Positions 16,901-30,912 of a DNA stretch of 38,860 bases are shown here, one piece after another. The translations under genes and the position numbers were made by a program. This stretch comes from Microcaldota archaeon. GTDB lineage: Archaea; Micrarchaeota; Micrarchaeia; Micrarchaeales; CABMGC01. The stretch lies in contig JAJZKQ010000005.1 of NCBI GenBank assembly GCA_021804095.1, positions 1 through 38,860 on the forward strand, in the 5' to 3' direction. How positions within the stretch are numbered: the first letter of the stretch is position 1; every line of letters starts with the position of its first letter. The notes below the pieces were generated by a model, which was not told where the DNA came from, ran no database searches, and saw only the letters and a program-made list of their open reading frames with translations.

Positions 16901-17734
16901 GTTGCTCTGAAGTCCTGCTGTTGCAAGGGCAGTCGGTATGCTGTTCTTCAGTGAAGTTGCCAGATCTGCACCTATCGCGGTTGAGAGTGTCTTTGAGAGG
17001 ATCGGCTGCATTGTCTTGGATAGATTGCTGTTTATGCTTGAGGCTATATAAGAGGATATTTGGCTTGGGGAAGGCCCTGATGTTCCAGGAAGAGTGTTAT
17101 CTCTCGTATAGTTGATAGTTCCTGCAGCTACTATCGGTATTACCTCGGATAATGATTGCGATAGGCTTTGCGAGAGTGTGGGAGGCAGGTTGTTGTATAG
17201 CGATGAGCTTAGCGAGGCTCCAAGTGAGACTGCTATTGCCTTTGGAAGAACAGATGCCATGCTTGCTGGAAGTGTGTAAGAGAGGCTTTGCGAGAGAGTG
17301 GAAGATAATGGGTTTACATATGATTTTGCTATGTTTATCGCAGTCTGGTTTGTGCTCTGGTTTACAGCGGCAGGTAAGGCAGAATTCAGCGAGTTTGAGA
17401 ATACGCTGTAAAGTACAGTCTGGTTGAGCGACTGGTTTAGTGCGTTATAAATAGCATATGAAACTGAAGCCGGAAGCGTTACGTTGAAGGATATTGCATT
17501 TATAGGTATTGGCATATTTGTCGAGTATTCTGTCAGTGTGCCATTGACCGGATTTGTAGCAGGAACAGTGATATTGACATTTAGAACGGTAGGAGGTATG
17601 TTTATGGTTATGTTCTGTGCTGTGAAGGAGGGAGTTGTTGCGCTTAAGAGAGAAAGCATTGACAGAACAGTAATTATAGAGATTAGAAAAGGAATCTTGT
17701 TTTTTAGGTAAATGTTTTGACGCATGTGCTCCAA
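7901..17734 (-). CDS. Giant (about 3277 aa) modular, membrane-anchored surface/secreted protein (ATG 17725 probably the start)
   Basis: N-terminal signal/anchor (NKIPFLISIITVLSMLSLLSATT), Ser/Asn/Leu heptad-like region, Gly/Ala-rich repeats of about 32 aa, Ser/Thr linkers, lysozyme/SLT-like domain, propeller-like segment, C-terminal TM plus basic tail (ISAIGIVITVFVVLAIILYRKEHHKKRQRKH). One uninterrupted frame. Confidence 0.88.
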   Translation of the reverse strand: MEHMRQNIYLKNKIPFLISIITVLSMLSLLSATTPSFTAQNITINIPPTVLNVNITVPATNPVNGTLTEYSTNMPIPINAISFNVTLPASVSYAIYNALNQSLNQTVLYSVFSNSLNSALPAAVNQSTNQTAINIAKSYVNPLSSTLSQSLSYTLPASMASVLPKAIAVSLGASLSSSLYNNLPPTLSQSLSQSLSEVIPIVAAGTINYTRDNTLPGTSGPSPSQISSYIASSINSNLSKTMQPILSKTLSTAIGADLATSLKNSIPTALATAGLQSNISLLINQSLENQLNQSIYSASTSAISNSTTTKLSKNLIQNISQSLSTQLASDLSSQLTAQLSSSLSSQVSQNLGSGIAAYASEDFASNMGSSLETSIPSYLGGGYPGGYNVNPYQFGSVLGVPPTGLPYTQIANGSYMVTATNPEYMNAGQLSYILLDQMPSIAGSSSAGIGLAVGAATQGLTPYSAMSALQMALPVAVPGAISSSVSYVVGSELGAGLNSGQLLGIGTSLAASYSGNPAAAALGTSALYQLQAGIPGTNYGYLMEAAGAATGNMGLVAAGSLMGGYSIGGIPGLLAGVGASTGSPALMDAAMLGGEYYQNVNAGYFALSAASMLGYSNYAIPASYALAALQGGGNIGTLTMAMAMLSGSSHLMQAASALSLLQGGFQTGSNPLFIAGALTGSTSLEAAGGALSLLQGGTTLGNGLTYAGAYSGSTGLMGSGELMNMYGSGGTVGTSLGALGGYYGGPMAYGAMGLMSGDPYAVGLMANGGYGTALEALSAMQSGVLNQPTTAAFALNLGNLPVGITAASGLNGGTNAAVGLTTGYGTLLGGILPVSALSSVNFILPQSTVGGLGGLSGLLPGIPGLGGLLNTQLPDINQYISGLGFGNGFGIPGIGSLGGGGCLVAVACEGIQNLFGPLPNLQGVLPGLNGLIPGIPGLDLSNFNIPGLNLGSIPGLSLGNILTGYGTSTTFGAGGIVSGTLGGNVGIGGAMLTSGLNIDLGKAMAASGVPSGMIGAIGSTVGYASAALNAYFVLSNFGSSVVTVTGVGSVSTPFNTNQSIGSSLVINPGQPAASQSSPSSSSSSSSSSTIGDQALGTHAITITSNATLGNQVYQQSGSAASPASGSQPAQPAAQGVSPGQSISTNINLIPQKQTISVSSPYQFSPATQVAVYNQQNAPWFLTCPTAPSPDPTNDMYFEANQGMNVAGDACIAIGSTLDTIISISTTVHTNSPCIPLPSPSAISNPLQAEAVLLSTCAYSIVQPLSVENPGILSLNVLTYSPEVDGMLSNGYSTDSYIFQQVPSMAQNAVWTWNVEYANFQHAAAQNSDAARGLLLTTGFCTWSYNYRESTSLTSMSNNYIPFNELISLNGQPAASMQNTQVPGAIQPSISGVIGAQGVGSIIGPTSSVGGITGCIADGGASINGQCPSVGAGGAGDLPYTGKNTLPNNTNQRRTLYQPISGAPSPSSVPGSPSSTGLYYLAPTIGTFGEATIDTNVLPLLYFNYSIALTPGVPGEIQGLTRESESIFNPWTYYTPNYSIDQFPINLPGIFIFQNQNNVLSYLPQSGSGINLTATPNPVMYYTFTSSGGVSTPPPAAGTISPTTGTPTQLPSQTLTPSSTNPSSSSTTPSVIPTIPTQNTNPVALGSCPTDTIVLSRQQADACAQQAGFENTGTTVTTIGLDTVVAISEAESSLNSHNMHNNGKVCIKGANAGQESLDVGIMQINNCAHPNMVSCTGTTFSSCTGSATTVVGSFQDAYVLSAGGTNFNPWCTYGPSACGGYGNSAYCQYLPTGDPCESGGYGAGLIATSGIISTPPYLSQMSAYGITSPISMTSPGNGYVYVLFQNPSQNNAYEIAIIKDFPRGYYNATNVPLPPLGTSDAICSSESTCQSTWSQTWSNYWYNVMNVQAYQSYIVNIIPITSLFNAATSGTTTSTTGTITTGPGTTTTLPTTSQQASSGIISGAPFNGRNESYNLTFQAAQPSASTGQVLITIQDSAVNYPQTTTINAYCTPSTDPCQIQSPLGTTLASGTGEATYSTPSGLPVGSYIYYVKDDATGNTNSASLTVEPQVYGLCSPTGLQPSLTQPTDPYAIPLGSTQEYLNPACNFVPYNISTDANGDIFLTGVATTNGNNPYIVKVANVLINGKICPPTASAICDQFSVGKVPSSISLPTFTEIASSPSGENVYLASPNYGGVLVFSGTNLGYLYTIPLTFGQIYPGANAGVAGSASQQISSGSSQISSSTIIPGYTAVLDIAYWLNNGGLFNYPIPMPNLQSGLSVQSADLDQPGNHHPLAIANINGYLYVLDNWRGQLASGTNFNILMLRAINSTGANVPVDPSKFNDIFAQNTCSNANLDTNVCYTGGTDVPPPSSCSAGCVPEPDINSPCGTTSSVSVGEGYVTPIPSGYNYKCVNNAYSLSTNYYSLTASLSPKETYPPYGWIISATVGSLSFCGAPTCVQTESTILPSSTYAVGPELSSYGCTPVSAAQSTLGSIISWGSQFFTGCGTKISMSVDANGTVSILMPQNTGNNVNQNEPSEFQYPELLISKFNLENYTKIREGTPPFICYTAAGGGTCNAYPNMANLLPPIYTTGDPFFYEENQGSQQILAYANQYYSQFTGGGGTPQNLFLTNGGSTASGAATSATTTTQEECSKQLQNFQSPTLCATSQSGILGGASLTAGTQAQNLGQPYQTSAPSFTQLPGNNIPSSVTLSSRVSGEALIGYKYTYTLTQTFYNFALSPASGCYSTAFGCSVCSAAGSVLSHMPPNIQSQTVYSYAPTPEASSAYLTANVEGGDTYLQYGNGGPYYVQNLSDYGLFLSHHILLNTTGDRLFSSSYVATESPGGIIYLLNAMQQLQFLVQTFTRASQSYQTITSAPVNSGSFPNSGPAYSSVTTLPISPYTSNYIFIPEYSQQPYSGTVSLFDWYKEEIFSDPTMLYAPQLNGYQRILLAFLDRFNNTIFAPIDADVANITTISLNASANVDFQNPNQTTLTITGIAGENSYNGFGAINQSFNPLSGGSIYIYMGQDMNYVTANGNIMNPQQAQLCAFGSSTSPYMPAGTPYPSQCNLADPMWRGLQAGASTVTYYAPSSCGPPPQSLLYTTQDTCNIYGAFGLPATCPSQPSGQAFCIPNAVTGNGICNSQYGLVGVTSTASNGFFTYSTNACGIGQVNIQAVYYGDSVQPITAIQEPLVGSVNSIIGALPTAPVSFNAISYFWAPNESATIASIGLFELGVGNISAIGIVITVFVVLAIILYRKEHHKKRQRKHLDTKKPSSHKRNR
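12300..12800 (-). other. Lysozyme-like / SLT lytic transglycosylase-like domain inside the giant protein
   Basis: TVVAISEAESSLNSHNMHNNG...ESLDVGIMQINNCAHPN...DAYVLSAGGTNFNPWCTYGPSACGGYGNSAYC resembles the lysozyme-like superfamily pattern E-S ... (D/Y)xGxxQIN ... PW. Confidence 0.65.
15400..16190 (-). repeat. Gly/Ala-rich tandem protein repeats of 31-36 aa in the giant protein
   Basis: Units such as GSSHLMQAASALSLLQGGFQTGSNPLFIAGALT / GSTSLEAAGGALSLLQGGTTLGNGLTYAGAYS / GSTGLMGSGELMNMYGSGGTVGTSLGALGGYYG. Confidence 0.7.
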
Positions 17735-17799: not shown

Positions 17800-19149
17800 A
17801 TGGAAGACATGAAGAATGTGAATATCACAAAATTATATAAATTACATCTTCCTTTTAGATTCGGTGTACCTGTGCATATAGAAAGACGACATCTGCTTTT
17901 TGCTATAATTATAATCTCAGCTTTGCAGCTTGTAAACGCATACAGTCCTTCGTTTATTCAGCTCCCGGTAGGCAGCCTTCCTCGCGGGATTGTGATAAAC
18001 CCTTCGACAAATGTTGGATATGTGGCAGATTATGGAAACGGAAATGTCACTTTCATAAATCTGGGAAGCAGGAGCATAATAAATGAAGTTAACGCTGGAA
18101 GTGGAATCGAAGGCATAGCATTAAGCCCTGACAATGCTTACGTCTATGTTACTGATTATAACGGATCTTCTATAAGCGCTATAAATACCAATACGTATGC
18201 GGTTACAAAAATACCGATAACAAATAGTACGCCATATGGAATTGCCATAACACCGGATGGAGCGTATGCATATGTTACCTCTCCTGGAATACCGGTTAAT
18301 GGAATACAGCCTAACAGCACAGTATATGTAGTAAGCCTTCAGACTGACAAACCGGTAGCTCAAATTAAAGTAGGCAGGGGCGCACAGGGAATTGCAATCT
18401 CTCCAAACGGCAGATTTGCATATGTAGCAAATTATGATGACTCGTCCGTCAGCATAATAAACACCACTACAAACAAGGTAATATCAATAATCACTGTAGG
18501 ATACGGAGTGGACAACATCGCCATATCACCTAATGGAAATTATGTCTATACCAGCAATTATAACCTGCCTCTTGAGCTCTATCTTGGAAGGCAGTTTAAC
18601 GGAAGCTCAAGCATAATAGACGGCACAACAAATAAGTTTGTCAAGACAGTCATTGCAGGCGAGGGACCTGATGCGGTAGCCGTTTCCCCGACAGGAGCAT
18701 ATGCATATGTAACAAATGCGGGGGACGGAACAATCAGCATAATAAACACCACTACGAACAATGTAACAGGAACGATAGTCGCAGGAGGATTTGCAAAGAG
18801 CTTCTTTGACGGAATAGCCATATCATCAAATGGAAACTACGCGTATCTTGCGAACCCTTATAACAATACTTTGGAGATAATTGACCTCAGGCTTGTGACA
18901 GTGCAGCCGCCTAAGTTTTCAGTTATACCTGTAGTTTCAACATCACAATCGGTGAGTTCTACGCCTAGTGTGCCTTCGCAGAGTTCCGGCAGTGGAAAGA
19001 GCAGTTCAGGCACAACGTCAACTACACCCGCAGTAAGCCAGCAGGCAAATAACTCCCCTAATTACACAATAATTTATGCAATGATGGGCGTGATAATAAT
19101 ACTGCTAGCTTTGGTCATCGCACTGCTTGTGAGAAAATCCGGAAAGTAG
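17800..19149 (+). CDS. YVTN-family beta-propeller surface protein with N-terminal signal anchor and C-terminal TM
   Basis: Repeated blades: VGSLPRGIVINPSTNVGYVADYGNGNVTFINL, GIEGIALSPDNAYVYVTDYNGSSISAINTNT, GAQGIAISPNGRFAYVANYDDSSVSIINTTTNKVISIITVG; C-terminal TM IIYAMMGVIIILLALVIALLVRK. Confidence 0.9.
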   Translation: MEDMKNVNITKLYKLHLPFRFGVPVHIERRHLLFAIIIISALQLVNAYSPSFIQLPVGSLPRGIVINPSTNVGYVADYGNGNVTFINLGSRSIINEVNAGSGIEGIALSPDNAYVYVTDYNGSSISAINTNTYAVTKIPITNSTPYGIAITPDGAYAYVTSPGIPVNGIQPNSTVYVVSLQTDKPVAQIKVGRGAQGIAISPNGRFAYVANYDDSSVSIINTTTNKVISIITVGYGVDNIAISPNGNYVYTSNYNLPLELYLGRQFNGSSSIIDGTTNKFVKTVIAGEGPDAVAVSPTGAYAYVTNAGDGTISIINTTTNNVTGTIVAGGFAKSFFDGIAISSNGNYAYLANPYNNTLEIIDLRLVTVQPPKFSVIPVVSTSQSVSSTPSVPSQSSGSGKSSSGTTSTTPAVSQQANNSPNYTIIYAMMGVIIILLALVIALLVRKSGK

Positions 19150-19275: not shown

Positions 19276-20103
19276 TTAATTCTGAACCTGGAATAGTTTT
19301 GTCATCTCCTCAAGATTTGTTATTCTGTAGTTCATTCCATATAGATGGTGGACCTCCCTGCCTACCACACGGATTATGCTTAGATCAAAGGAGTTGAATA
19401 CTGTTTGGAGATGTGCAAGCTGGTTGCTAAGCACGTCCATTGCTTCTTTCTGGCTTACTCCGACTGCGGTGGATTCTATGTACATTATACTGTATGTTGG
19501 CAGCTCTCCGTCTGAGATTCTGTCTATTCTTGTCTGGATAATGTTTATCTGGCGTTCTATCTCCTTTATTGTAAGGGCATTTGGCGTTGTATTCTGCTCT
19601 TCCCTTGAAAGCTGGAATTCCAGATATCCTCTTTTGCCTTCTAGTGCCTCCCTATATTTCTGTACATCCTCTGCTACAGATATAAGGTTGAACTTGAAGG
19701 TAAAATTTGTATTCATTAATATCCTTTCCCATTTTTCCGGTCCTGATGAGAGATTTTCTTCTTCTCCTGGAACAATGTTCTCAGCTGAGAACACATATTT
19801 GTAGATATTGCCGGTTAGATAGCCTGTTGCGTAATAAAGCCCGTTTGCATTTTTGATAACACAATTTTGGGTTTCCGGCACCATATGTGTCTTGGATAGC
19901 TGTATCTGTACATTCATACGCTTGGTTATGAATGGAAATACCAAAAAGTCGGCGAAGTTCATGGCCATTATAAAAAATAACACTATTATGCCTATTGCAA
20001 ATACTATGGGAGAGAGGATACCATAGTTTGACGCGTTGGATAGAACAAGCACTATGACTGCAATCGATGTTCCCATGTATAATATAGTTTCCATCTCGAC
20101 CAT
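19276..20103 (-). CDS. Membrane protein: N-terminal TM pair plus cytoplasmic domain resembling VirB4 N-terminal (CagE/TrbE-like) region; no ATPase domain
   Basis: Two N-terminal hydrophobic segments, then WERILMNTNFTFKFNLISVAEDVQKYREALE ... LPTYSIMYIESTAVGVSQKEAMDVLSNQLAHLQTVFNSFDLSIIRVVGREVHHLYG. No Walker A. Confidence 0.75.
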   Translation of the reverse strand: MVEMETILYMGTSIAVIVLVLSNASNYGILSPIVFAIGIIVLFFIMAMNFADFLVFPFITKRMNVQIQLSKTHMVPETQNCVIKNANGLYYATGYLTGNIYKYVFSAENIVPGEEENLSSGPEKWERILMNTNFTFKFNLISVAEDVQKYREALEGKRGYLEFQLSREEQNTTPNALTIKEIERQINIIQTRIDRISDGELPTYSIMYIESTAVGVSQKEAMDVLSNQLAHLQTVFNSFDLSIIRVVGREVHHLYGMNYRITNLEEMTKLFQVQN

Positions 20104-20945
20104 TAAGAACCACCAATTGTCTTCTGATGCATTCTCTCGCTTATAGTCTCGGTAGGTATCATGAAGTCCGGCTCCACGAACGAGAGAATTTCCTTACCTG
20201 TCACTACTGAAGCGGTTACGCCGAGAGTGGCGCTTATGCCTCCTGCAAGGTCCTCGGCCTGTGAATAGGCAATGTTTGCCGCTTCTTCTTCTGTGCCGCC
20301 TATTGCGCTTACCATTGCATAAAGTACAAGAGACTGTGATCTTGAACTGCTGACATTGTCAAGGAGGTTTCTCCACATTGTTATCTCCCCTCTTATGCGC
20401 TCCTGCTCTCCGGATTTTGAAGAGCCCGGATCTTTTGAAGCCTGTATGTTCCTGTATCGCTCTTCTGATCTGTTGAGTATATCCCGAAGTTTGTTTATGT
20501 ACTCATCCTTGTTTATCATGTATAGCTGTGCTGAAAGCTTTATAGGATTCTTGCTTAGAGTAAGTATCCTCCCGAACATTTTAGATATCTCAGTCTTCTC
20601 CTCGTCATTCATTTCTGTGGAGGAACGATACATCGGTATTTTTACAAATGCGCTTCCGTATATCTTTCCGTTTTCCCTCCTGACCATTGCGTTTTCAGAT
20701 GGGGCAATTGTCGAAGCCTCGCCATCTCCGAGGATAAGTGTTCTGTCTTTTCTCTTCTTTACAGCATCTAGGAGATATAGATAATCTTTGGTGAGGAATG
20801 CTGCAAGCGAAACGAAAATGGCTATTATAGCAAGCAGCGTGTCTAATACAGATATATGTATTACCTGCGAGATTACTGCGAATACTATAGCCATGGCAGT
20901 AAGCATACCGAAGAGCATGAATCGCGTGTTAGGCATTGGACTCAA
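20103..20945 (-). CDS. Membrane protein, probable paralog of the 19276..20103 product (TM pair plus VirB4-N-like domain); no ATPase domain
   Basis: Two N-terminal TMs, then MFGRILTLSKNPIKLSAQLYMINKDEYINKLRDILNR ... SQSLVLYAMVSAIGGTEEEAANIAYSQAEDLAGGISATLGVTASVVTGKEIL. Stop/start overlap with the next gene. Confidence 0.75.
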   Translation of the reverse strand: MSPMPNTRFMLFGMLTAMAIVFAVISQVIHISVLDTLLAIIAIFVSLAAFLTKDYLYLLDAVKKRKDRTLILGDGEASTIAPSENAMVRRENGKIYGSAFVKIPMYRSSTEMNDEEKTEISKMFGRILTLSKNPIKLSAQLYMINKDEYINKLRDILNRSEERYRNIQASKDPGSSKSGEQERIRGEITMWRNLLDNVSSSRSQSLVLYAMVSAIGGTEEEAANIAYSQAEDLAGGISATLGVTASVVTGKEILSFVEPDFMIPTETISERMHQKTIGGS

Positions 20946-21165
20946 CCTTGTGATGAAGCTCTGTTTCTAGTGTTTCTCTGACAGTTTTGGTGTTATAAAA
21001 GAATACTGTCTTTTTGGTTAATTCAGAATACATGTTATCGTTATGGTAATTCATCTTTATATGCCTTTTTTGTCTGACGGTTATCCTAATAGTTGGTTCC
21101 GGATGTGAAAAAATAAACTCCGTATTTACAGCTTGGGTGCTAAATCCGTGGTTGTAATCGTTCAT
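20929..21165 (-). CDS. Small soluble protein (78 aa), unknown
   Basis: Start overlaps the stop of 21162..22250 by 4 nt and its stop overlaps the next start by 17 nt, consistent with translational coupling in the operon. Confidence 0.55.
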   Translation of the reverse strand: MNDYNHGFSTQAVNTEFIFSHPEPTIRITVRQKRHIKMNYHNDNMYSELTKKTVFFYNTKTVRETLETELHHKVESNA

Positions 21166-22250
21166 ATCTTCAACCTTGAGGAGAGCTGTGACATTCCGCC
21201 TATGAATTCTGCTATTTGCATGATTATCGCATAGGTAAGGGCCATTATCAATGCCGGATAGAATAGCACTGAAAGCCAGTATGCATCCATTGATACCTGA
21301 ATGTTGTTTAGTGTCTGCACCAGTTGTGAGTTCGGATTAAGCGCATTTGTTATAGCGCCGGTGCCTGAGCCGAACTGCTGCAGCTGGGCCGTATTATAAT
21401 TTGCCTGTGAGAGAGTAGTACCGCCGGTGAAGTAGTATGCAACTGAGAATAGCAGAGGAAGTGCTACATAGAAGCCTATCGCAATGGCTATCATCATGCC
21501 TCCCATTGATCTGGTAGGTATTAGGGATCTTAACACGACTCCAGGAACCAGGAATACAGGTATTGCTATGTACATGAATGCCATTATAGCCCAGAATTCA
21601 GTATATAGAAGGGCAAGCACATCCAGTTGAAGGTCTATCATGGTAAAGGCAGGGATAAAGAAAAGGTACTGCAGAGTATATTTGAAAGGTTCCGGTATGA
21701 AGGAACATCCGAGAGGTCTGCATACCTGAAGATTGATGCCTATGTAGAAGCTCTCGACTGCGACTATATCAAAAAGCCGGTAGAGCTCTGTTTGAAGCGC
21801 CGTTATTGTATTCATTATATAGTTTAGGGATGTGACATATGGATTTGTAGAGACTATAAGACCAGGAACAAGGCCGAATAAGACCCCTGTGACAGTAAGA
21901 AATAGAACTACTATGATCGCACTTGCAAGAGCTTCATAATATTCACCTATTCCAAAATTTTTTATTCTTTCGTTCTTTAGCAGGATTCCTGCACCGAAAA
22001 GTACGCTTGCAATAGAGAAGGAAACGAAGACTGCGAGAAGTGCTATAGGCATCCAGCCCATCCAGTAGCTTGATAGTGCAGAGCTTATCTGGAGGCAGTA
22101 CCATGGGGCAATTTGCTGGATTGTGCCGCTGCTGAGAAAACCACTGCAGCCTGTTCCTGCATATCCCTGCGATGAAGACTGCGCCGTTATGAAATGTGGA
22201 ATCAGAGATAAAGCCATGAGAAAAATAAATATCTTTATTCTTGACTTCAT
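21162..22250 (-). CDS. Polytopic membrane protein with signal peptide; VirB6/TrbL/CedA-like by analogy (paralog 1 of 6)
   Basis: Signal peptide MKSRIKIFIFLMALSLIPHFITAQS; motif FLVPGVVLRSLIPTRSMGGMMIAIAIGFYVALPLLF. Confidence 0.8.
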   Translation of the reverse strand: MKSRIKIFIFLMALSLIPHFITAQSSSQGYAGTGCSGFLSSGTIQQIAPWYCLQISSALSSYWMGWMPIALLAVFVSFSIASVLFGAGILLKNERIKNFGIGEYYEALASAIIVVLFLTVTGVLFGLVPGLIVSTNPYVTSLNYIMNTITALQTELYRLFDIVAVESFYIGINLQVCRPLGCSFIPEPFKYTLQYLFFIPAFTMIDLQLDVLALLYTEFWAIMAFMYIAIPVFLVPGVVLRSLIPTRSMGGMMIAIAIGFYVALPLLFSVAYYFTGGTTLSQANYNTAQLQQFGSGTGAITNALNPNSQLVQTLNNIQVSMDAYWLSVLFYPALIMALTYAIIMQIAEFIGGMSQLSSRLKI

Positions 22251-22257
22251 AATACCA

Positions 22258-23361
22258 CTATAGGATTCTTATCAGCAATGAAAGTAGATCCATCCGTTCC
22301 CCTATTGCCTGCGAGAAATCAATTATGAATACATCTACTATTACAAGATTTATTAAAGGTATCAAGGTTAATCCGACCCAGATAATTCCAACGTATGCAA
22401 AAAGATAAGTTGGCAGTATTGTTGCAAGATTATTGCCTAGGAGGTAGCTGAAATATACTCCGGCACCATAAAGGACGCTTGTGACGCCTCCTGTGGCTAC
22501 TCCGGATATAAGCAAGCCGCTCATGAAAGATATGCTTGCTGGATAGACATTGTCAACTGCGACGTTTATGAATCCATAGTCTATTATGGTAAGTATAGGG
22601 TACAATATACCAATTCCCAGTGCGAATGCAATCATTGCCCCGCCGAAAGTGCGGGATATCCCGAATATCCTAGCTATAAGCCCTAGCGACATTAATATCG
22701 CAAATATTACTGCTGCTGATGATAGTATTATTAACTGGAGGTCGTTTCCTAATACAAACACATATATTGCGTCTACAAATGTGCCCAGATATTTATAGGA
22801 TATATCTGCACTTATGAAAGTTATTTGCGCTGAAAGCTTTCCTGAAAATATGCTTCCAAAAAAAGAGGGATAGCTTATGCTTACTCCGAGAGTAGGCTGC
22901 ACAGTACCCATAATGAGCATCATATAATATTGTTCAAGATTGAGCCTTCCTGAGAAATAGTTGAATGTTGACATATCACATACAGATAGGGAATAGATGT
23001 TATACATGGAGCCGAGGCATTCTGTAGGCACTATTCCCATATTGGTATTAAGATATCCGAGTGGAAGATTATAGATGATGTTAGCTGCATATGCAAAGGC
23101 TATTATGAGAACTATCGAGAGAAGTACATCATATATTTTTACCCTTGTCCATACAGTTATGTCGCTCCTTCCGGTAAACCTGAATAGAGAGTATATTAAG
23201 ATGAGTATTCCAAGAACTGCGACCGCAGCTATGCCTGCAATGGAGAACCATGCTGTATACATAGGCTGGAAACAGGAGTAGAGGTTAGTCGCAATGCAGT
23301 TTCCGCCTGGAGTCACTATCTGCAGGATGTATAATTGGATAATATTCTGAATAAACATCAT
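22258..23361 (-). CDS. Polytopic membrane protein (paralog 2 of 6)
   Basis: Motif SLGLIARIFGISRTFGGAMIAFALGIGILYPILT; overlaps next gene by 4 nt. Confidence 0.8.
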   Translation of the reverse strand: MMFIQNIIQLYILQIVTPGGNCIATNLYSCFQPMYTAWFSIAGIAAVAVLGILILIYSLFRFTGRSDITVWTRVKIYDVLLSIVLIIAFAYAANIIYNLPLGYLNTNMGIVPTECLGSMYNIYSLSVCDMSTFNYFSGRLNLEQYYMMLIMGTVQPTLGVSISYPSFFGSIFSGKLSAQITFISADISYKYLGTFVDAIYVFVLGNDLQLIILSSAAVIFAILMSLGLIARIFGISRTFGGAMIAFALGIGILYPILTIIDYGFINVAVDNVYPASISFMSGLLISGVATGGVTSVLYGAGVYFSYLLGNNLATILPTYLFAYVGIIWVGLTLIPLINLVIVDVFIIDFSQAIGERMDLLSLLIRIL

Positions 23362-24698
23362 ATTAACCTCTCTAAGAGCCTTCCGCTTGTAAGTGAAGGA
23401 GAGCCTAAGAAATCGCCTAGGGCTTCAAGCAGATCAAATGATATCAGTAATGCTATGGAAAAACCTATCAGGTTTAATACGGCAGTGCCTATGTAGCTTA
23501 TGTATGCGTCTATAAGCTGTATGAATACCTGTCCTGGGTTCAGAAATGGAAGGCTTGCTATGAATGTAAGTATTGATACGCCGCTTAGTGGATTCTTAAG
23601 TGATAATGTTGATAGTTGGGTTGGTAGGCCTGCAGCGTTAGTTAGAAACCAGCTGTATATAACTGATGGAGACTGGCAGTTTCCAAATCCGGAATTTGCA
23701 GAACTTGATACACATGCTGAATTAGTAGCAGTATATATCTGAGATGAAGCAAGTGCAGTGACAGGATAGTATAATGCAGGAAAGATCAGGTAGAATGATA
23801 TGAACAATGCTAAAAGTGCGCCTCCAGCAGCTCTTGTCCATGGAAATGATCTTAGAAGTACTCCCAGATATAGGAAGGCTGGAAATAGAAAGTATATTGT
23901 GAGCAATAGGAAATTTGTAGTGACACCCAGGAAGAGTGTTATTGAAAGCGGAAGCAGAAGGAATACTACAAGCTGATAATACATCTGAACTCCGTCAAGT
24001 GGTTTGAATGTTATTGTTGGCACGAAAGTTGAGAGACCCGGTGTAGCCGGGGATGTTGTAAGGGAGAGTGAACTTATAAGAGAGTAGAAAGGTATATTGG
24101 CAAAAGTTAGTATGAGTGTTGAGATAGACGGACCTATTTGTGTATTTATTATATTTTGGCATATACCCATGTAAAGTGCACTGCCGTATTGGGGTGAAGG
24201 CTGGCTGCTGTATGAGCTTGCAAGAGATCCGAAAAATCCAGCATATGCAGAAGTTGCTGCAAGCGAGCCGGCTATAACCCCTATAAGGATTATATTTAGT
24301 ACGCTTTCCAGTACTTCTGTTCTGGAAAACTGTACAAGCTTGCTTATTCCAAACGCATATCCTATTCCATATGCAAGTGCAAGTATACAGAAGACTGCAA
24401 GAACCACTAGTAGTGCCAGCTCAGCTATGTTAAGGCCAATATTCCCATTTACAAATATGCTCGGGAAGAGTTGAGCATTGCCTCCTCCGGTTGGCGCTAC
24501 TTCGCCTCCGCCTGCGGCTACTTCACTTAAACTGGTAGACGGCAATGTTACCTGGTTGTTATAAAGGGCACTGCATGTCTGTGTTGCAAATGTGCCTAGA
24601 AAGCCTGAAGGAGCAGAAGGGGAAGACGTAGCAGATTGTGCGCCTACAGTGCCTATAAGAAGAATGCATAAAAATATCAAAGCAAGAAGTTTTCTCAT
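23358..24698 (-). CDS. Polytopic membrane protein with signal peptide (paralog 3 of 6)
   Basis: MRKLLALIFLCILLIGTVGAQS; motif FLYLGVLLRSFPWTRAAGGALLALFISFYLIFPALY. Confidence 0.8.
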   Translation of the reverse strand: MRKLLALIFLCILLIGTVGAQSATSSPSAPSGFLGTFATQTCSALYNNQVTLPSTSLSEVAAGGGEVAPTGGGNAQLFPSIFVNGNIGLNIAELALLVVLAVFCILALAYGIGYAFGISKLVQFSRTEVLESVLNIILIGVIAGSLAATSAYAGFFGSLASSYSSQPSPQYGSALYMGICQNIINTQIGPSISTLILTFANIPFYSLISSLSLTTSPATPGLSTFVPTITFKPLDGVQMYYQLVVFLLLPLSITLFLGVTTNFLLLTIYFLFPAFLYLGVLLRSFPWTRAAGGALLALFISFYLIFPALYYPVTALASSQIYTATNSACVSSSANSGFGNCQSPSVIYSWFLTNAAGLPTQLSTLSLKNPLSGVSILTFIASLPFLNPGQVFIQLIDAYISYIGTAVLNLIGFSIALLISFDLLEALGDFLGSPSLTSGRLLERLI

Positions 24699-24705
24699 TA
24701 TACCA

Positions 24706-26250
24706 CTATAGAAGCCTTCCCAACCCCAACAGGCTTGTGTCCCCTCCTAGAAGCGAGGAGATCCCTTTTATTGAAGAGAGGAGTATCAAAAGATTCATTA
24801 TATTCAGAAGAACACTTGATACGAATATAATCCCATATAAGTTCGATATGTTGAATATGGAAGTGAGTATATTTTCAGGAGTGCATGAGAATCCGCCAAG
24901 GAATGTGAGTCCCGGAGAAGGAATTCCGCCGAAAGTAGGCAGTGTTGATAGGAAATCTTTTGCAGCTAGAATCAGGCCCACTCCTGGAATAAGGTATGAT
25001 CCTGCAACTTCCGCTTCTCCGAAAGTTACACTCCCGCCAGGAGGCCAGCATCCATTGTAATTCAGTATGTAATCAAGTCTTGGATATACATAAAAGTTAA
25101 TGAATTGGGAATCGTAATCTATAGGGCCTTGGCCTACTACAGTTACTTCTCCGGATGGAGAGGTAGTAGCAGTGGAGCTAATTTGAATTGGAAGGCCTGT
25201 GAGAAGCATTGAATTGTACGGGTTTGCTCCCTGAATTGTAGGAGGTATCCCTATAGGACTGAGAGGATTGTTGGCATTTGTAAGCGCTGCGTATTCGAAG
25301 AGGGTAAGCATAGGGTATAAGAATAGACCTACGATGACTACAGATAGGATAAGGCCTCCTGCCCTTCTTGTAATGAATGATGATCTCAATATTATCCCGG
25401 CTGCTAGCAGATATGGCCACCCAAACAGCATTATGATTATTGCAATAAGTTCTACAATTCCCAGATAGGTTACAAGCTGGGCTTCTGCTCCTATGAAGAG
25501 AGTTCCTCCCCTTATCTTCCCGTATAGGTTGAAAGGAGAGTATGAATAAGTAGCATTGAAAGCGGCAGGGCCTGCGGGAGCTATTGCAGGGCTGGCTGCG
25601 CAGGTTGCCGGATAGCAGACGCTTTCAGTTACTACAAGAGCTGAAAGAGTTCCATACCAGTCTTCAAATACGTTTAGTGCATTGATGTTTATTGCTGATT
25701 GTGAAGTGATGTTTGCTGCTATTGCGTAGGTTGCCGCAAGACCGTAGTCTATATTTGTAGTTATATCACTGCTGCCTGAGCTTGCAGGATTTATTATTCC
25801 GGAACAGATGGTAGCAGTTGGTCCCGGATTGGAGGCACCCGGAACCTGCAGGAGGGAGTTGGTAAGATCCAGAGGAGAGCTGCCCAGCTGTGCTGAACTA
25901 CATATGTTAGATACCGATTGTGCAAGCTGCGCGTCTGATTGATAAATTGCGCTTCCGTAGAGATTAAGTGCTGAGATTATTATTACAATTATTACAGCTG
26001 TGCCTACTACCTGGGAGAATTCGCCTATGGCCATCTGCTTCAGTCTGCCGTTGTTTATCAGCGTTGCAAGTGCGTACATGACTATAGGTATCATTGCCGA
26101 TACAAAGATACCTATTATGATAACGGGAATCCAGTTGAAAAATACATTTATGCTTGAGGTTATAGGATATGTGGATTGTGCATATCCTATTGGTAAATAG
26201 GATATAGAAATGAGAAGAATTGAGAGAATTATAGGTAAAATTTTTCTCAT
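24706..26250 (-). CDS. Polytopic membrane protein with signal peptide (paralog 4 of 6)
   Basis: ATG 26250 gives MRKILPIILSILLISISYLPIGYAQS signal peptide (the listed 26280 start overlaps the upstream gene); motif LLAAGIILRSSFITRRAGGLILSVVIVGLFLYPMLT. Confidence 0.8.
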   Translation of the reverse strand: MRKILPIILSILLISISYLPIGYAQSTYPITSSINVFFNWIPVIIIGIFVSAMIPIVMYALATLINNGRLKQMAIGEFSQVVGTAVIIVIIISALNLYGSAIYQSDAQLAQSVSNICSSAQLGSSPLDLTNSLLQVPGASNPGPTATICSGIINPASSGSSDITTNIDYGLAATYAIAANITSQSAININALNVFEDWYGTLSALVVTESVCYPATCAASPAIAPAGPAAFNATYSYSPFNLYGKIRGGTLFIGAEAQLVTYLGIVELIAIIIMLFGWPYLLAAGIILRSSFITRRAGGLILSVVIVGLFLYPMLTLFEYAALTNANNPLSPIGIPPTIQGANPYNSMLLTGLPIQISSTATTSPSGEVTVVGQGPIDYDSQFINFYVYPRLDYILNYNGCWPPGGSVTFGEAEVAGSYLIPGVGLILAAKDFLSTLPTFGGIPSPGLTFLGGFSCTPENILTSIFNISNLYGIIFVSSVLLNIMNLLILLSSIKGISSLLGGDTSLLGLGRLL

Positions 26251-26254
26251 CGGA

Positions 26255-27493
26255 TCAACTCCAGAAAGGTCCGCTTCCAATCATGCTCCCTATTGTGCTT
26301 ATGCCCTTATTAAGACCTATCGCAAAGCCTATGGTTATGCCAACATCAAGCCCTATAAGGAATATTGACTGGAATAAGAACTGGGCAGTATATTCGGTGA
26401 AATTGTTTATTACCCCAGGCAGATTGTAAAGCCCGGTTAATACCTCTTTTCCTGCTGATGCAAGGCCTCCGTTTGAGCTTGCTATAGCCCCCCAAAAGTT
26501 CAAAGGTATGCCTATTAATGGAGTAGTCTGCGACGGACATACACCTATGCCGTCAAGATTGCAGTCTACAGCAGGGTTGTTTAGAAGCTGGTTGAGAGGC
26601 AGAGAATTAAGCTGGTATGGGAGAAGCTGTGTGGCGTAAGGATTGCACCCGGTCAGGCTGCCCAGGCAGTATGTCCAGCTTACTACATAATAATTCATTG
26701 CTATAGTAAGTGGGAAAACAAAATAGAATGCTATGGCTATTGCTATTAAAGCGTTTGAAGCTTCACGAAGCCTTGGCCCAGTAAATGATAAAGACCGCAT
26801 TATTATCGCTACAGGGATTACAAGAGTAAGCGAGAGGGATTCTATTGCATAAAGAGCCAGGAATATCACAAACAGGAGGCCAAACGTCACTACGACCAGT
26901 GGCTCTAGAATTAGATACAGTATCGAGTTATAGTCGTATATTATGGTCGCTGGCTGATCATTGCCTCCTACTGCGATGGCTGGAAGTATATTCAGCCCAA
27001 GTAATCTTCCGCTCGTTATAGTTATTGGTGGTATGAAACTTGCTGCCAGAGATAGGACATAGTTCACTATGAATGCATCTATTATGAATAATACACCTGC
27101 AGACCACATCTGACTGGTAAGCTGTATCCCTTTGTTGAAAAGAAGGTTGCTGATGTAGTAGTTTGCAAACTGGAATGGATCACTGTAAGTATATGATGCC
27201 CCTTGTGTCAGTGCTCCTCCAACCTCGCAAGCTGCAAGTGATGCGGTAAGCAGCACCGCTATGAGTACAATGCTGAATATGCCTTGTATGTATTCGTATT
27301 TTACGGCACCTCTGAGCTTTTCTCTCATGTCGGATGGCAGAAGCCCGCTTATTGCATATACGGCAGAGGTGACCATCAGTACCCCGATAACCAGCAGCAC
27401 CGTAACATTGATCCAACCGTCATAATTAAGGAACTGTATATTGTATTGGCATTGGCCTATGAATCCGGTGGATAAGAGCAAAAATGGTTCCAT
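26255..27493 (-). CDS. Polytopic membrane protein (paralog 5 of 6)
   Basis: Motif VIPVAIIMRSLSFTGPRLREASNALIAIAIAFYFVFPLTI. Confidence 0.8.
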   Translation of the reverse strand: MEPFLLLSTGFIGQCQYNIQFLNYDGWINVTVLLVIGVLMVTSAVYAISGLLPSDMREKLRGAVKYEYIQGIFSIVLIAVLLTASLAACEVGGALTQGASYTYSDPFQFANYYISNLLFNKGIQLTSQMWSAGVLFIIDAFIVNYVLSLAASFIPPITITSGRLLGLNILPAIAVGGNDQPATIIYDYNSILYLILEPLVVVTFGLLFVIFLALYAIESLSLTLVIPVAIIMRSLSFTGPRLREASNALIAIAIAFYFVFPLTIAMNYYVVSWTYCLGSLTGCNPYATQLLPYQLNSLPLNQLLNNPAVDCNLDGIGVCPSQTTPLIGIPLNFWGAIASSNGGLASAGKEVLTGLYNLPGVINNFTEYTAQFLFQSIFLIGLDVGITIGFAIGLNKGISTIGSMIGSGPFWS

Positions 27494-27495
27494 AA

Positions 27496-28938
27496 TTACA
27501 CGAGTTTGAGTTTTCTGCCTAGGCTGAGCCTTATGCTTCCGCCTAGCATCTTGGCTATGTTATCAGTAAGTGAATAAAGAATCATTAGGTCTATTACTCC
27601 GAGCACATAGAACTGTAATATCAGGTATAGGTTGTATTCTACAAGCATGTTGAGCAATGGGAAGATATTGCTTCCACTGCTAAATGCCATCGGAAGGTAA
27701 CCCATTATGCTTGTGACTCCCTGTACACTGGTGGCTACGCTATTTCCTGTAGGGTTGTTGAAAACGGTTGTTACTGTGGTAACTATCGAGGAACAGGCTG
27801 AGCTCAGGAATCCTTGTGGCAGATTTGCAGGATCTTGACAGAAGGAGAGGGCTGAATTTGATGCCTGGATTATAGGTGAAAAACTGACTGGGCCTAAAGG
27901 AGTGCAGAAGTTGGTTCCTACTACACTGCAGAACCAGTTCGATATTGGAGCATTAAAGAGTATCAATATTGAAGGCCATATTATGGCTATGCCTATTGCA
28001 AATGCGATGAGTGTTCCGCCTATTCCTCTAAAAAGAGGAAGAGACCTCATCACTATGCCTATGGGAAAGAGTACTGCAAGTCCTAAGAAGATAAGGAAAG
28101 GAAGTATAACTATCTGGGAAGAATAGAATACCATAGCTGGAACTACAAGGTATATTACGAAATCGGTAAGCAGGGAAGAGAATTGCCCAAGATATATGAT
28201 ATTTACCCCCAATAGAAAGCTTTGATACAAGTATACACCACTTACTCCGGAGCGAAATACTGGGAGGGCAGCAAGCGCAGGCAGTAATGTATCCAATGCC
28301 GGATTTGGAATAGGAATTCCGGAAAAAGATAGACTTATTGACTTTACAAATGATACATCAAATATGTAAGGTGCAAAATTGTCTATAGAAAGATTAGCCT
28401 GATTGTTTACAGTACAGAGATAGTTTTCTGAATAAAGTGCGAGGCTCTGCACGCTTGTAGGATATCCCTGTATTGCAGATGAGCTCCCATTTAGGATGAG
28501 GCCCATGCTGCTTATGAATGATATCGAAAGAAATACGATAGCTATAAGGACTGCTGTTTTTATTACCTCCCAGTATTCCTTCTGGAGCCAGTTGTTTATG
28601 TTGGATGAGGGAATGAGTTTGCCAAGGGCGTATGCTACCGCGATTACAAGAAATGATATCATCAATGCAAGGATTGAAAGCGCTATTGCGCCTCCAGGTA
28701 TGTTATAAGAAAGACCGTAGGTATTCATCAGGCTTTGGAAACTTGAAGACGAGGCGCCTGTTACAGCTGCATTGCCGGAAGGGATAGTGGTTCCTGTTTG
28801 TGCTCCGAATAGTGTATTGCATTCATAGCTTGGGCTGAAGGCAGGTATGCCTATTATCGTTGCGTGTACAGAGGATACCATGAAGAGGGCCAGAACCAGA
28901 GATATAAGTCCTGTTTTTGCTGCCCTATGACTATCCAT
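27496..28938 (-). CDS. Polytopic membrane protein with signal peptide (paralog 6 of 6)
   Basis: Signal-like GLISLVLALFMVSSVHA; motif LFPIGIVMRSLPLFRGIGGTLIAFAIGIAIIWPSILI. Confidence 0.8.
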   Translation of the reverse strand: MDSHRAAKTGLISLVLALFMVSSVHATIIGIPAFSPSYECNTLFGAQTGTTIPSGNAAVTGASSSSFQSLMNTYGLSYNIPGGAIALSILALMISFLVIAVAYALGKLIPSSNINNWLQKEYWEVIKTAVLIAIVFLSISFISSMGLILNGSSSAIQGYPTSVQSLALYSENYLCTVNNQANLSIDNFAPYIFDVSFVKSISLSFSGIPIPNPALDTLLPALAALPVFRSGVSGVYLYQSFLLGVNIIYLGQFSSLLTDFVIYLVVPAMVFYSSQIVILPFLIFLGLAVLFPIGIVMRSLPLFRGIGGTLIAFAIGIAIIWPSILILFNAPISNWFCSVVGTNFCTPLGPVSFSPIIQASNSALSFCQDPANLPQGFLSSACSSIVTTVTTVFNNPTGNSVATSVQGVTSIMGYLPMAFSSGSNIFPLLNMLVEYNLYLILQFYVLGVIDLMILYSLTDNIAKMLGGSIRLSLGRKLKLV

Positions 28939-28960
28939 GACTGTTTATAATATAACAAGC

Positions 28961-28970
28961 TATAAAGTAT
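28961..28970 (-). promoter_or_regulatory. Putative TATA box for the polytopic-protein operon
   Basis: Minus strand ATACTTTATA about 25-30 nt upstream of the start at 28938. Confidence 0.4.
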
Positions 28971-29091
28971 TGACGTAAAGATCGAAATATGGAAGTCAAA
29001 TTTAGAATTTCATATTTAGGTTGGATTTGCTGTTATTTTTAACTAAAAATGTTTTTTGAAGAGTAGTTTATAGGATTTTGCATCTCCAGTA

Positions 29092-30912
29092 TCAGAGTTC
29101 TATTGGATTTTCAGGGTTGCCCCATATAGATGCTGCAATTCTTTTTTGTGTTTTTTTGACTATGTCCTCTGCGCTTTTTATATAGGAATTTATATTTTCA
29201 GCATATGTTGTTGCGGAGCTGGTTCTGCCTAGTCCGGTGAGATAATTGCTGTAGTAAGGATTGGTAAGATGATGGGTTATTGATTTGTCAATAGGTCCAT
29301 ACAACTTATTGTATATCCTTACATATGCACGATCAAATTGATTCCCGGTTATCTCACCTTTTTCATATTTTTCCTTTAGTTCTGAAAGTACTCCAGGAGA
29401 AGCGGATTCTTGTTGAGCAGTCTCTTGTAAGGATGGGCTGGCAGTCTCCTTTTGGAGTTCTTCTTGCGAGGAAGCTTGTTTAGCTGGCTGAGGGCTGTAT
29501 TGCTTATCTTCGCTTGCGGGTTCTTTTTGAGACTCTGCCTGCGAGGAAGGTCTCCCTGTGTATTTTTCTATCTCTTCAAGTCGTTCTTTTACATTTTCAT
29601 ACATTATTGGTGCAATATCCTTGAGGTTTTTGCCTTCTTTTATCTTTGAATCTATCTCTTTTATAGTACTTTGAAGTTCTTCGTATGCATTTGGCCTACG
29701 TGCCTTGTCCATATTTTTTAGTTCTTTTTCAAGTGTGGTTTTTGACCATTCCAGATCAGATAGTGCAGCTTCCATATGCCCAGTATATAGATTGCCTGCT
29801 GGTTCTCTTTCAGATTCGGCTTCCTCTACATGTATCTGCCTTCTTAAGTTCTGGATTTGAGTCAGTTCCTTCCATGCGTTTCTTGAATTTAGCCTCTGGC
29901 CTGGAGAAGCCTGGAGCGGATCAAGAGTCTTGCTGAGAAGAGGAGTGAATGCCAGAAGCAGATCAGATGTGTTGTATTTTTTGTTATATGAATCTTCAAG
30001 GGATTTGAGTTTTTCTTTCTTCGCTTCTATAGATTCCTGTCTGCTTTTGATTTCCTTGCCTTCTTCTCCATATATAAGTGTTCTAAGGGCAGCCTGTTCT
30101 ACATAAGGCCTTGGGGTTGGTGCGTTTTCCTCTTTCTTTTCTGAATCCGGTAGTTTTGGTTTATAAGTTCTGTAAGTATCATGTATGGATTTGGAGACGC
30201 CCCATAAGATGGGTGTTGCATAACGGAAAAATGTCCCGGAGTTTGGCGTTTTTTTCTCTTTTCCTGTATTTTTAGCTATAGGAGCTTCTTTAGAGCCTTT
30301 TGGGCCTTTCATAAGATTTAGCCTGGTTGCTGTTCCTTTTATTGCTGATATGGTAGAACCTGCCAGTGTCTGCGGCTTAAGAATATTTGCACTTGGAGTC
30401 TTTGCTGCTGAACTGCCGGGCTGAGTTCCGAGTGATTTGGAAGAGGAGCTTCCGTTCCTTGAATTGCTTTCGGAAGCTGGGCCTTTTCTGCCACGCAGAA
30501 CTCTTGCTTGAGCCAAAATGCCTCCCAGAATTCCACGCCTCTTACTTTCATAATCATTTTTGCCGCCCTTGTTTTTGTATTTTGATTTGTATCTAATGAA
30601 AGGATCCAGGTATGCCCTCATTCCGTAACCGGATTTTGCCATTGATCCCCTGCTTGCACCCCCATATGAACCCATTCCACTTAGGAGCTGGCTTATTCCA
30701 AAAACATTGAAAAAGCTGAAGTTTCTTGTTGAGCCTGCGGCAGCGGCAATTAGTATTATTATTATCACTATGGGGATAAGCGCATTTACTGCACCTACAG
30801 AGAGTATAATCCATGGAATTGCAAGGATAGAGAGGAAAATGGCCGCATAGGTTGCCTTAGGCATGGCTTTTAATAGATGACCTTTAGATACTGGCTCTTG
30901 TTTGTACATCAT
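29092..30912 (-). CDS. 606-aa protein: two N-terminal TMs plus long charged, Ser/Glu/Lys-rich, partly coiled-coil cytoplasmic tail
   Basis: AAIFLSILAIPWIILSVGAVNALIPIVIIIILIAAAA followed by a basic linker and charged helices (KSRQESIEAKKEKLKSLEDSYNKKY...). Confidence 0.75.
   Translation of the reverse strand: MMYKQEPVSKGHLLKAMPKATYAAIFLSILAIPWIILSVGAVNALIPIVIIIILIAAAAGSTRNFSFFNVFGISQLLSGMGSYGGASRGSMAKSGYGMRAYLDPFIRYKSKYKNKGGKNDYESKRRGILGGILAQARVLRGRKGPASESNSRNGSSSSKSLGTQPGSSAAKTPSANILKPQTLAGSTISAIKGTATRLNLMKGPKGSKEAPIAKNTGKEKKTPNSGTFFRYATPILWGVSKSIHDTYRTYKPKLPDSEKKEENAPTPRPYVEQAALRTLIYGEEGKEIKSRQESIEAKKEKLKSLEDSYNKKYNTSDLLLAFTPLLSKTLDPLQASPGQRLNSRNAWKELTQIQNLRRQIHVEEAESEREPAGNLYTGHMEAALSDLEWSKTTLEKELKNMDKARRPNAYEELQSTIKEIDSKIKEGKNLKDIAPIMYENVKERLEEIEKYTGRPSSQAESQKEPASEDKQYSPQPAKQASSQEELQKETASPSLQETAQQESASPGVLSELKEKYEKGEITGNQFDRAYVRIYNKLYGPIDKSITHHLTNPYYSNYLTGLGRTSSATTYAENINSYIKSAEDIVKKTQKRIAASIWGNPENPIEL

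Follow-up and report, generated by a model that had tools for sequence, protein, structure and literature searches.

A conserved hexad of polytopic membrane proteins in Micrarchaeota, probably part of a translocation machine derived from type IV secretion

What kind of machine, if any, is encoded by the tightly packed run of membrane protein genes on contig JAJZKQ010000005.1 of a Microcaldota (Micrarchaeota) archaeon (assembly GCA_021804095.1)? The window, by which we mean the whole stretch of 38,860 nucleotides that was analysed, belongs to a genome of 811 kb in 41 contigs that is 82.8% complete and is labelled G000 here. Its minus strand encodes six polytopic proteins, named P6 to P1 in transcription order, followed by B4N1 and B4N2, which each have two transmembrane (TM) helices and a soluble domain. 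We consider it likely that this run encodes the membrane module of a translocation machine that is chromosomal in Micrarchaeota and inherited vertically, that derives from a type IV secretion system (T4SS), and that has a hetero-hexameric pore and ATP-driven transfer at cell contact. A first-pass annotation, made from the sequence alone, had described a co-directional, tightly packed run, and this description was accurate: all named open reading frames (ORFs) lie where it placed them, with overlaps of 1, 4 and 17 nt, and P5 and P4 overlap by 26 nt. The genes of the module are as follows.

27496..28938, minus strand: P6, VirB6-like polytopic subunit, hexad position 1 (480 aa, amino acids); hhalign to P1 98.9%; closest outside relatives are at position 1.
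26255..27493, minus strand: P5, VirB6-like subunit, hexad position 2 (412 aa); hhalign to P1 97.0%; closest outside relatives are at position 2.
24706..26280, minus strand: P4, VirB6-like subunit, hexad position 3 (524 aa); hhalign to P1 99.3%; closest outside relatives are at position 3; ratio of non-synonymous to synonymous substitution rates (dN/dS) 0.066.
23358..24698, minus strand: P3, VirB6-like subunit, hexad position 4 (446 aa); hhalign to P1 99.3%; closest outside relatives are at position 4.
22258..23361, minus strand: P2, VirB6-like subunit, hexad position 5 (367 aa); hhalign to P1 99.1%; closest outside relatives are at position 5.
21162..22250, minus strand: P1, VirB6-like subunit, hexad position 6 (362 aa); homologues detected in 97 of 100 genomes from the order; AlphaFold model; dN/dS 0.04.
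20103..20945, minus strand: B4N1, membrane-anchored protein resembling the VirB4 N-terminal domain (280 aa); hhalign to B4N2 96.9%; adjacent to B4N2 in 66 of 66.
19276..20103, minus strand: B4N2, membrane-anchored protein resembling the VirB4 N-terminal domain (275 aa); fold matches to R388 TrwK/VirB4; stand-alone in 251 of 296 genomes.

The run is real, goes well past what chance would produce, is under strong purifying selection (dN/dS of 0.03-0.07 for P1, P4, B4N1 and B4N2 against the close relative L060) and is part of a phylum-wide chromosomal system. Gene order was taken from 80 loci of named genomes, in which the usual arrangement is VirB2-like pilin, TM7 (243 aa), P6-P5-P4-P3-P2-P1, B4N1, B4N2, ATPase (~505 aa), c99, tm134, wh241 and big804. 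Every neighbouring pair is adjacent wherever both genes are present (44-76 loci per pair), with the sole exception of P1 and B4N1, which adjoin in 54 of 69 loci and are separated by a CT606-type or other gene in most of the remainder; the pairs from P6-P5 through P2-P1, and B4N1-B4N2, are adjacent in all of the 61-76 loci that contain both. The first-pass annotation had proposed searching DPANN genomes for the same neighbourhood; in these loci it is kept, with a VirB4-class ATPase adjoining. B4N2 is a separate gene of about 275 aa across the phylum, and housekeeping genes such as topoisomerase VI B stand beside the machine genes. The homologues in named genomes come nearly all from metagenome-assembled genomes of Micrarchaeota, some of them otherwise labelled, plus the cultured species Ca. 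Micrarchaeum sp. A_DKE (locus L119, NZ_CP060530 804311-825309).

The six polytopic proteins reported in the first-pass annotation exist and correspond to the conserved set P6 to P1; that they form an invariant hexad of VirB6-like paralogues is the main point beyond that annotation. Profile comparison indicates their paralogy: P1 is homologous to P2-P6 (hhalign 97-99%), and also to the lone polytopic protein encoded at a second, short locus (98.8%). In the order to which the genome belongs, P6 to P1 are consecutive in 45 of 46 loci longer than 20 kb, and complete arrays elsewhere in the phylum have six genes in 27 of 27 cases, a frameshifted gene in L171 being counted once. P-family matches per genome in the sister order are mostly 12-19. 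When 31 hexads (186 genes) were compared, the closest relative in another hexad was found at the same position for 186 of the 186 genes, and a FastTree tree required 6 changes of position label (the minimum possible is 5), against at least 106 in 1000 within-hexad shuffles. These two results place a single origin of the hexad before the split of these orders and indicate that its members are six separate lines and that whole hexads were duplicated.

Exactly six different paralogues have been kept, which is most simply explained if a single assembly requires one copy of each, and we therefore infer from gene counts and orthology that one copy each of P1-P6 would take part in an obligate hetero-hexameric ring. 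Topology and gene place fit VirB6, and it is by this context, rather than by sequence or fold, that the P proteins are interpreted as putative VirB6-type pore subunits. Pfam and NCBIfam searches of the window proteins assigned no family, P1 having no NCBIfam match, including to CedA. The N-terminus of the P proteins resembles the VirB2-like family (86%, over 35 columns only), and the AlphaFold model of P1 consists of long membrane helices (predicted local distance difference test, pLDDT, 79). VirB4-class ATPases are hexamers, and because of this and the six paralogues we favour an arrangement in which a hetero-hexameric pore sits above a hexameric motor.

Some members of hexads are far longer than the common core (up to 1409 aa; L222, L227, L231 and L246), mostly at positions 3 to 5, and carry extra domains. 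Hexads of the sister order also border very large proteins with 1-2 TM helices (L222:12749-16849, L223:11938-17541 and L225:223-4518; 1366, 1867 and 1431 aa), which have no Pfam match and are perhaps adhesins.

The cluster as conserved across relatives comprises a VirB4/Ced-class ATPase that lacks an N-terminal domain (NTD), separate B4N1 and B4N2, VirB2-like pilins and the six paralogous polytopic proteins. Its kinship with T4SSs follows from the ATPase, from a pilin that scores above the TrbC/VirB2 cut-off and from the matches of B4N2 to TrwK/VirB4. The divergent T4SS- or Ced-like apparatus foreseen in the first-pass annotation is accordingly supported by ATPase, pilin and TM-pair proteins together.

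That annotation had found no ATPase in the window and suggested that one might be encoded elsewhere, which is the case. Within the window B4N2 is the last gene of the operon, and next come genes for a beta-propeller protein and for a 3277-aa secreted protein; the ATPase, c99 and tm134 of the same genome are found on contig C21 (L057), wh241 and big804 on C16 (L058), and TM7 with two VirB2-like pilins on C30. The operon breaks after B4N2 in L060 as well, so the break is not an assembly fault of a single bin. The C21 ATPase is 72% identical to the operon-borne copy of a relative, and the ATPase gene lies directly 3' of B4N2 in 57 of 57 relatives that have both. It exceeds the cut-offs of three Pfam families (DUF87 with 55 bits, AAA_10 with 44 and TraG P-loop with 40.5), and its best NCBIfam models are VirB4-like CD1110 (1.3e-18), CedD (1.5e-18) and CedB (1.2e-16). 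On these profile scores it is assigned to the VirB4/CedD/CedB class, although the 60-67 bits that it reaches with the CedB and CedD models are far below their curated cut-offs of 600-700. The N-terminal domain is missing, as the alignment covers positions 393-721 of the 752-residue CD1110 model, and the Walker A and B residues are invariant among 31 ATPase sequences. The product of c99, which adjoins the ATPase gene (L057:7626-7922, L047:14202-14501), shows profile homology to part of the ATPase.

Upstream of TM7 lies the gene for a small protein that begins with a signal-like segment followed by two more TM helices. The pilin in L093 matches PF04956 (TrbC/VirB2) with 29.4 bits, and is the sole member above the cut-off of 27.9; 18 of 27 members of the pilin family match PF04956 at expectation values (E) up to 1, and the genome's own pilins on C30 are weaker, with 19.2 bits at best. 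A PDB search with the pilin returned a single match, to the R388 pilin TrwL (E 0.04), and among 66 proteins of R388 and pNOB8 TrwL ranked first with 82%, the runner-up having 1.5%. Pilin genes occur in tandem, two on C30 and three in L107. A 325-aa TM7 gene beside a VirB2-like gene in L176 was considered as VirB6 and rejected, since it is a PAP2 phosphatase.

The NTD that the ATPase lacks appears to be present here as the separate proteins B4N1 and B4N2, to judge by fold rank and by a profile match to a stand-alone NTD. The AlphaFold model of B4N2 (60 sequences, pLDDT 81.5) has two TM helices, then strands and two long helices. Compared with 350,542 PDB chains, its top four matches are all R388 TrwK/VirB4 (probability 0.94-0.99, E 0.02-0.05, TM-score 0.33-0.36). 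The B4N profile matches (81%, E 1e-5) a stand-alone protein of Bacillota plasmids whose gene lies between those for PrgI and a VirB4-type ATPase; this protein in turn aligns with residues 1-174 of the VirB4 CD1110 model. Direct comparison of the B4N profile with the NTDs of VirB4 from TrwK, a pNOB8-type archaeal plasmid and Halobacterium was negative, the VirB4 NTD family PF03135 was not found in this 82.8% complete genome, and among the 66 R388 and pNOB8 proteins the top B4N match, TrwM/VirB3, was insignificant (3.2%). No separate gene for VirB3/PrgI was seen in the system. The TM-pair proteins of the first-pass annotation do belong to a T4SS-like machine, as proteins resembling the VirB4 NTD and not VirB3/PrgI. 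Patescibacteria and plasmid pGO1 encode TrsD, a protein related to the VirB4 N-terminus that stands alone (PMC12102498), and we infer that B4N is its equivalent. In Sulfolobales the NTDs of CedB and CedD jointly form one VirB4 NTD (PMC11868833), and by analogy B4N1 and B4N2 may jointly do the same. In the Bacillota plasmids (L181, L182, L192, L193 and L194), where the N-terminal part of VirB4 and the ATPase are encoded as separate proteins, the two are annotated as hypothetical and DUF87.

The same genome carries a second, minimal Ced-like locus (G000:C36:14001-34000, L031), found also in L033 and L039, in which genes for VirB2-like, single VirB6-like, B4N-like and CedB-like ATPase proteins stand in a row. 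Its ATPase scores best with CedB (3.2e-18) and groups with the ATPases of the hexad system with moderate support (92/76) in a tree without Ced sequences. The locus further holds a 224-aa protein related to wh241, and in L031 and L039 a 746-aa AAA/HerA-like protein; its B4N-like protein is widespread too.

Taken together, the parts suggest the following mechanism. The six VirB6-type P proteins would assemble into a single obligate hetero-hexameric ring, beneath which B4N1 and B4N2 would tether the hexameric ATPase. VirB2-like pilins would be assembled by or through the ring into a thread or contact site, and ATP hydrolysis would move macromolecules (DNA or protein) through the envelope where the cell touches another, most likely its archaeal host. 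Contact-dependent exchange with host cells is the most likely function. The fuller proposal, in which a pore of six different VirB6-like subunits, fixed before the orders split and duplicated as whole hexads, sits on a hexameric ATPase with a split-off, membrane-anchored NTD and serves life on a host, appears to us evenly poised.

Several points weigh against this interpretation. The P proteins have no significant sequence match to VirB6, and the fold search with P1 gave no significant match, TrwI/VirB6 appearing at rank 17 with probability 0.47 and E 0.67, which is noise level. For B4N2 the fold match (E 0.02, TM-score 0.36) is convincing by rank rather than by score. The hetero-hexamer is argued from gene counts and orthology rather than from a structure of the complex, and in the cryo-electron microscopy structure of R388 the VirB6 of the stalk is reportedly a pentamer, so that the number six is not simply carried over. 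Neither VirD4 (PF02534) nor a relaxase (PF03432) was found in the 82.8% complete genome, where these single families were tried and other MOB families were not.

The nature of the cargo divides the readings that share the T4SS identity. An exporter or importer of effectors or other macromolecules acting on the archaeal host, a counterpart by analogy of the Patescibacteria T4SS, falls just short of an even chance. The two systems have in common that they are near-universal, chromosomal and mostly relaxase-less, with tandem VirB2-like proteins and a separate VirB4 N-terminal protein (PMC12102498), and Ca. Micrarchaeum harzensis, which seems to depend on host metabolites, is attached to a Thermoplasmatales host via a filamentous structure, with surface remodelling at the attachment sites (PMC8975820, in which secretion, pili or conjugation are not mentioned). 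On the other side, no effector or signal has been identified, and the homology shown between the two systems covers ATPase, NTD and pilin. A Ced/Ted-like DNA importer, which would acquire the DNA of kin or host cells to serve repair or to supply nucleotides, is a possibility that we hold more tentatively. It would fit the preference of the ATPase for the VirB4 CD1110, CedD and CedB models, the Ced component set of the second locus with its CedB-like ATPase, the failure to find a relaxase of PF03432 in the genome, and the absence of full nucleotide pathways from Micrarchaeota (PMC8975820). However, all scores lie far under the curated Ced cut-offs, the simpler second system could already fill this role, and the six VirB6-like genes are unlike Ced.

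Readings outside this frame fare worse. That the P proteins match no known family would suit an unrelated multi-subunit transporter or lipid-handling complex merely lying beside an ATPase, which is nevertheless very unlikely given the invariant linkage with VirB4-class ATPase, VirB4-NTD-like and VirB2-like proteins. The scattering of the operon over several contigs of this genome might suggest a conjugative element in decay or in passage, but the same arrangement recurs in the independent relative L060, and the purifying selection, the presence in 251 of 296 genomes, the housekeeping neighbours and the lack of hits to relaxase or coupling protein families (PF03432, PF02534) in the genome make it extremely improbable.

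Among known systems the proposed machine stands nearest to Ced/Ted and to the T4SS of Patescibacteria, and we regard it as a novel form of type IV secretion whose most surprising trait is the invariant hexad. With Ced/Ted of Crenarchaeota (PMC9905601, PMC11868833) it shares a VirB4/HerA-class ATPase, a small two-TM pilin, a chromosomal location and, as far as PF03432 was searched in this genome, the lack of a relaxase, and the polytopic P proteins may be likened to the CedA-type channel. The VirB4 NTD is divided over two proteins in Ced and may be so here; unlike CedB and CedD, the NTD proteins here have no ATPase domain and the ATPase has no NTD or TM helix, and six different channel proteins stand against one or two there, in addition to the low CedB/CedD scores. 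The Patescibacteria T4SS (PMC12102498) is likewise near-universal in an ultrasmall episymbiotic phylum, with tandem pilins and the separate TrsD, and its VirB6 may be likened to the P proteins, but it belongs to the bacterial MPF_FATA lineage and has PrgI/VirB3, which was not found here; a VirB6 hexad is not reported in the parts of that account available to us. R388 resembles the system in its VirB2 pilin TrwL and VirB4 NTD fold, and differs in having one VirB6 gene instead of six and a single-chain VirB4; a relaxase and VirD4 (PF03432 and PF02534) were not found here. Bacillota plasmid systems such as that of Geobacillus pGspE55-1 (PrgI, stand-alone NTD, DUF87 ATPase) also place a stand-alone VirB4 N-terminal protein beside a VirB4-type ATPase, but their ATPase keeps a second part of the NTD, PrgI is present and no VirB6 hexad occurs in the plasmid stretches examined. 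Rickettsiales, which depend obligately on hosts, have a T4SS with several paralogues of VirB6, which is of a different class and for which the portions of the source consulted do not describe a fixed set of six orthologous positions (PMC7648143). VirB4-linked giant proteins have been proposed in Nanohaloarchaea (PMC10266531). Our literature search, thin on subscription papers and preprints, found no account of the Micrarchaeota system, and an earlier notice is possible.

How Micrarchaeota and other DPANN archaea take from or put into their hosts is an open question, for which a concrete, near-universal candidate machine can now be named, with its genes pinned in the cultured Ca. Micrarchaeum A_DKE. 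To our knowledge no hetero-hexameric VirB6-type pore was known before, and the hexad would be the first. If the proposal is true, the symmetry of a T4SS pore becomes directly testable, because each subunit can be tagged separately. T4SS genes are essential for epibiotic growth in Patescibacteria (PMC12102498); given the like way of life, two domains may have reached the same solution.

Two further ORFs of the window were named.

29092..30912, minus strand: CT606, accessory membrane protein with a long charged tail (606 aa); relatives in 24 of 80 loci.
20929..21165, minus strand: s78, 78-aa ORF, probably not a functional part; dN 0.26, dS 0.35 against L060.

Both had been counted with the run in the first-pass annotation. 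The 606-aa TM protein is present ahead of it as described and is accessory rather than core, its relatives being located upstream of P6 or between P1 and B4N1. The 78-aa ORF also exists, but on a dN/dS of about 0.73 and the lack of an orthologue at the corresponding place in other loci it is probably spurious rather than a conserved protein under selection, and for the same reasons it was rejected as VirB3/PrgI.

Between the hexad operon and the giant protein lies the gene for the secreted beta-propeller protein (window 17800-19149, plus strand), which has the same place in L060. The 3277-aa protein (window 7901-17734, minus strand) is secreted and TM-anchored, with an SLT_3 lysozyme-like domain near residues 1663-1771 that scores 25 bits, just below the cut-off, and is odd in an archaeon. 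SLT-like domains occur in just 3 of 100 genomes of the order, each time in frames of more than 2000 aa, and the giant protein was on this count rejected as a core part of the system in the role of VirB1. Elsewhere in the same bin, the gene runs of contigs C5 (L199) and C37 (L200) of G000 parallel each other and include a HerA-like protein of 530 aa, which reflects either duplication or mixed strains.

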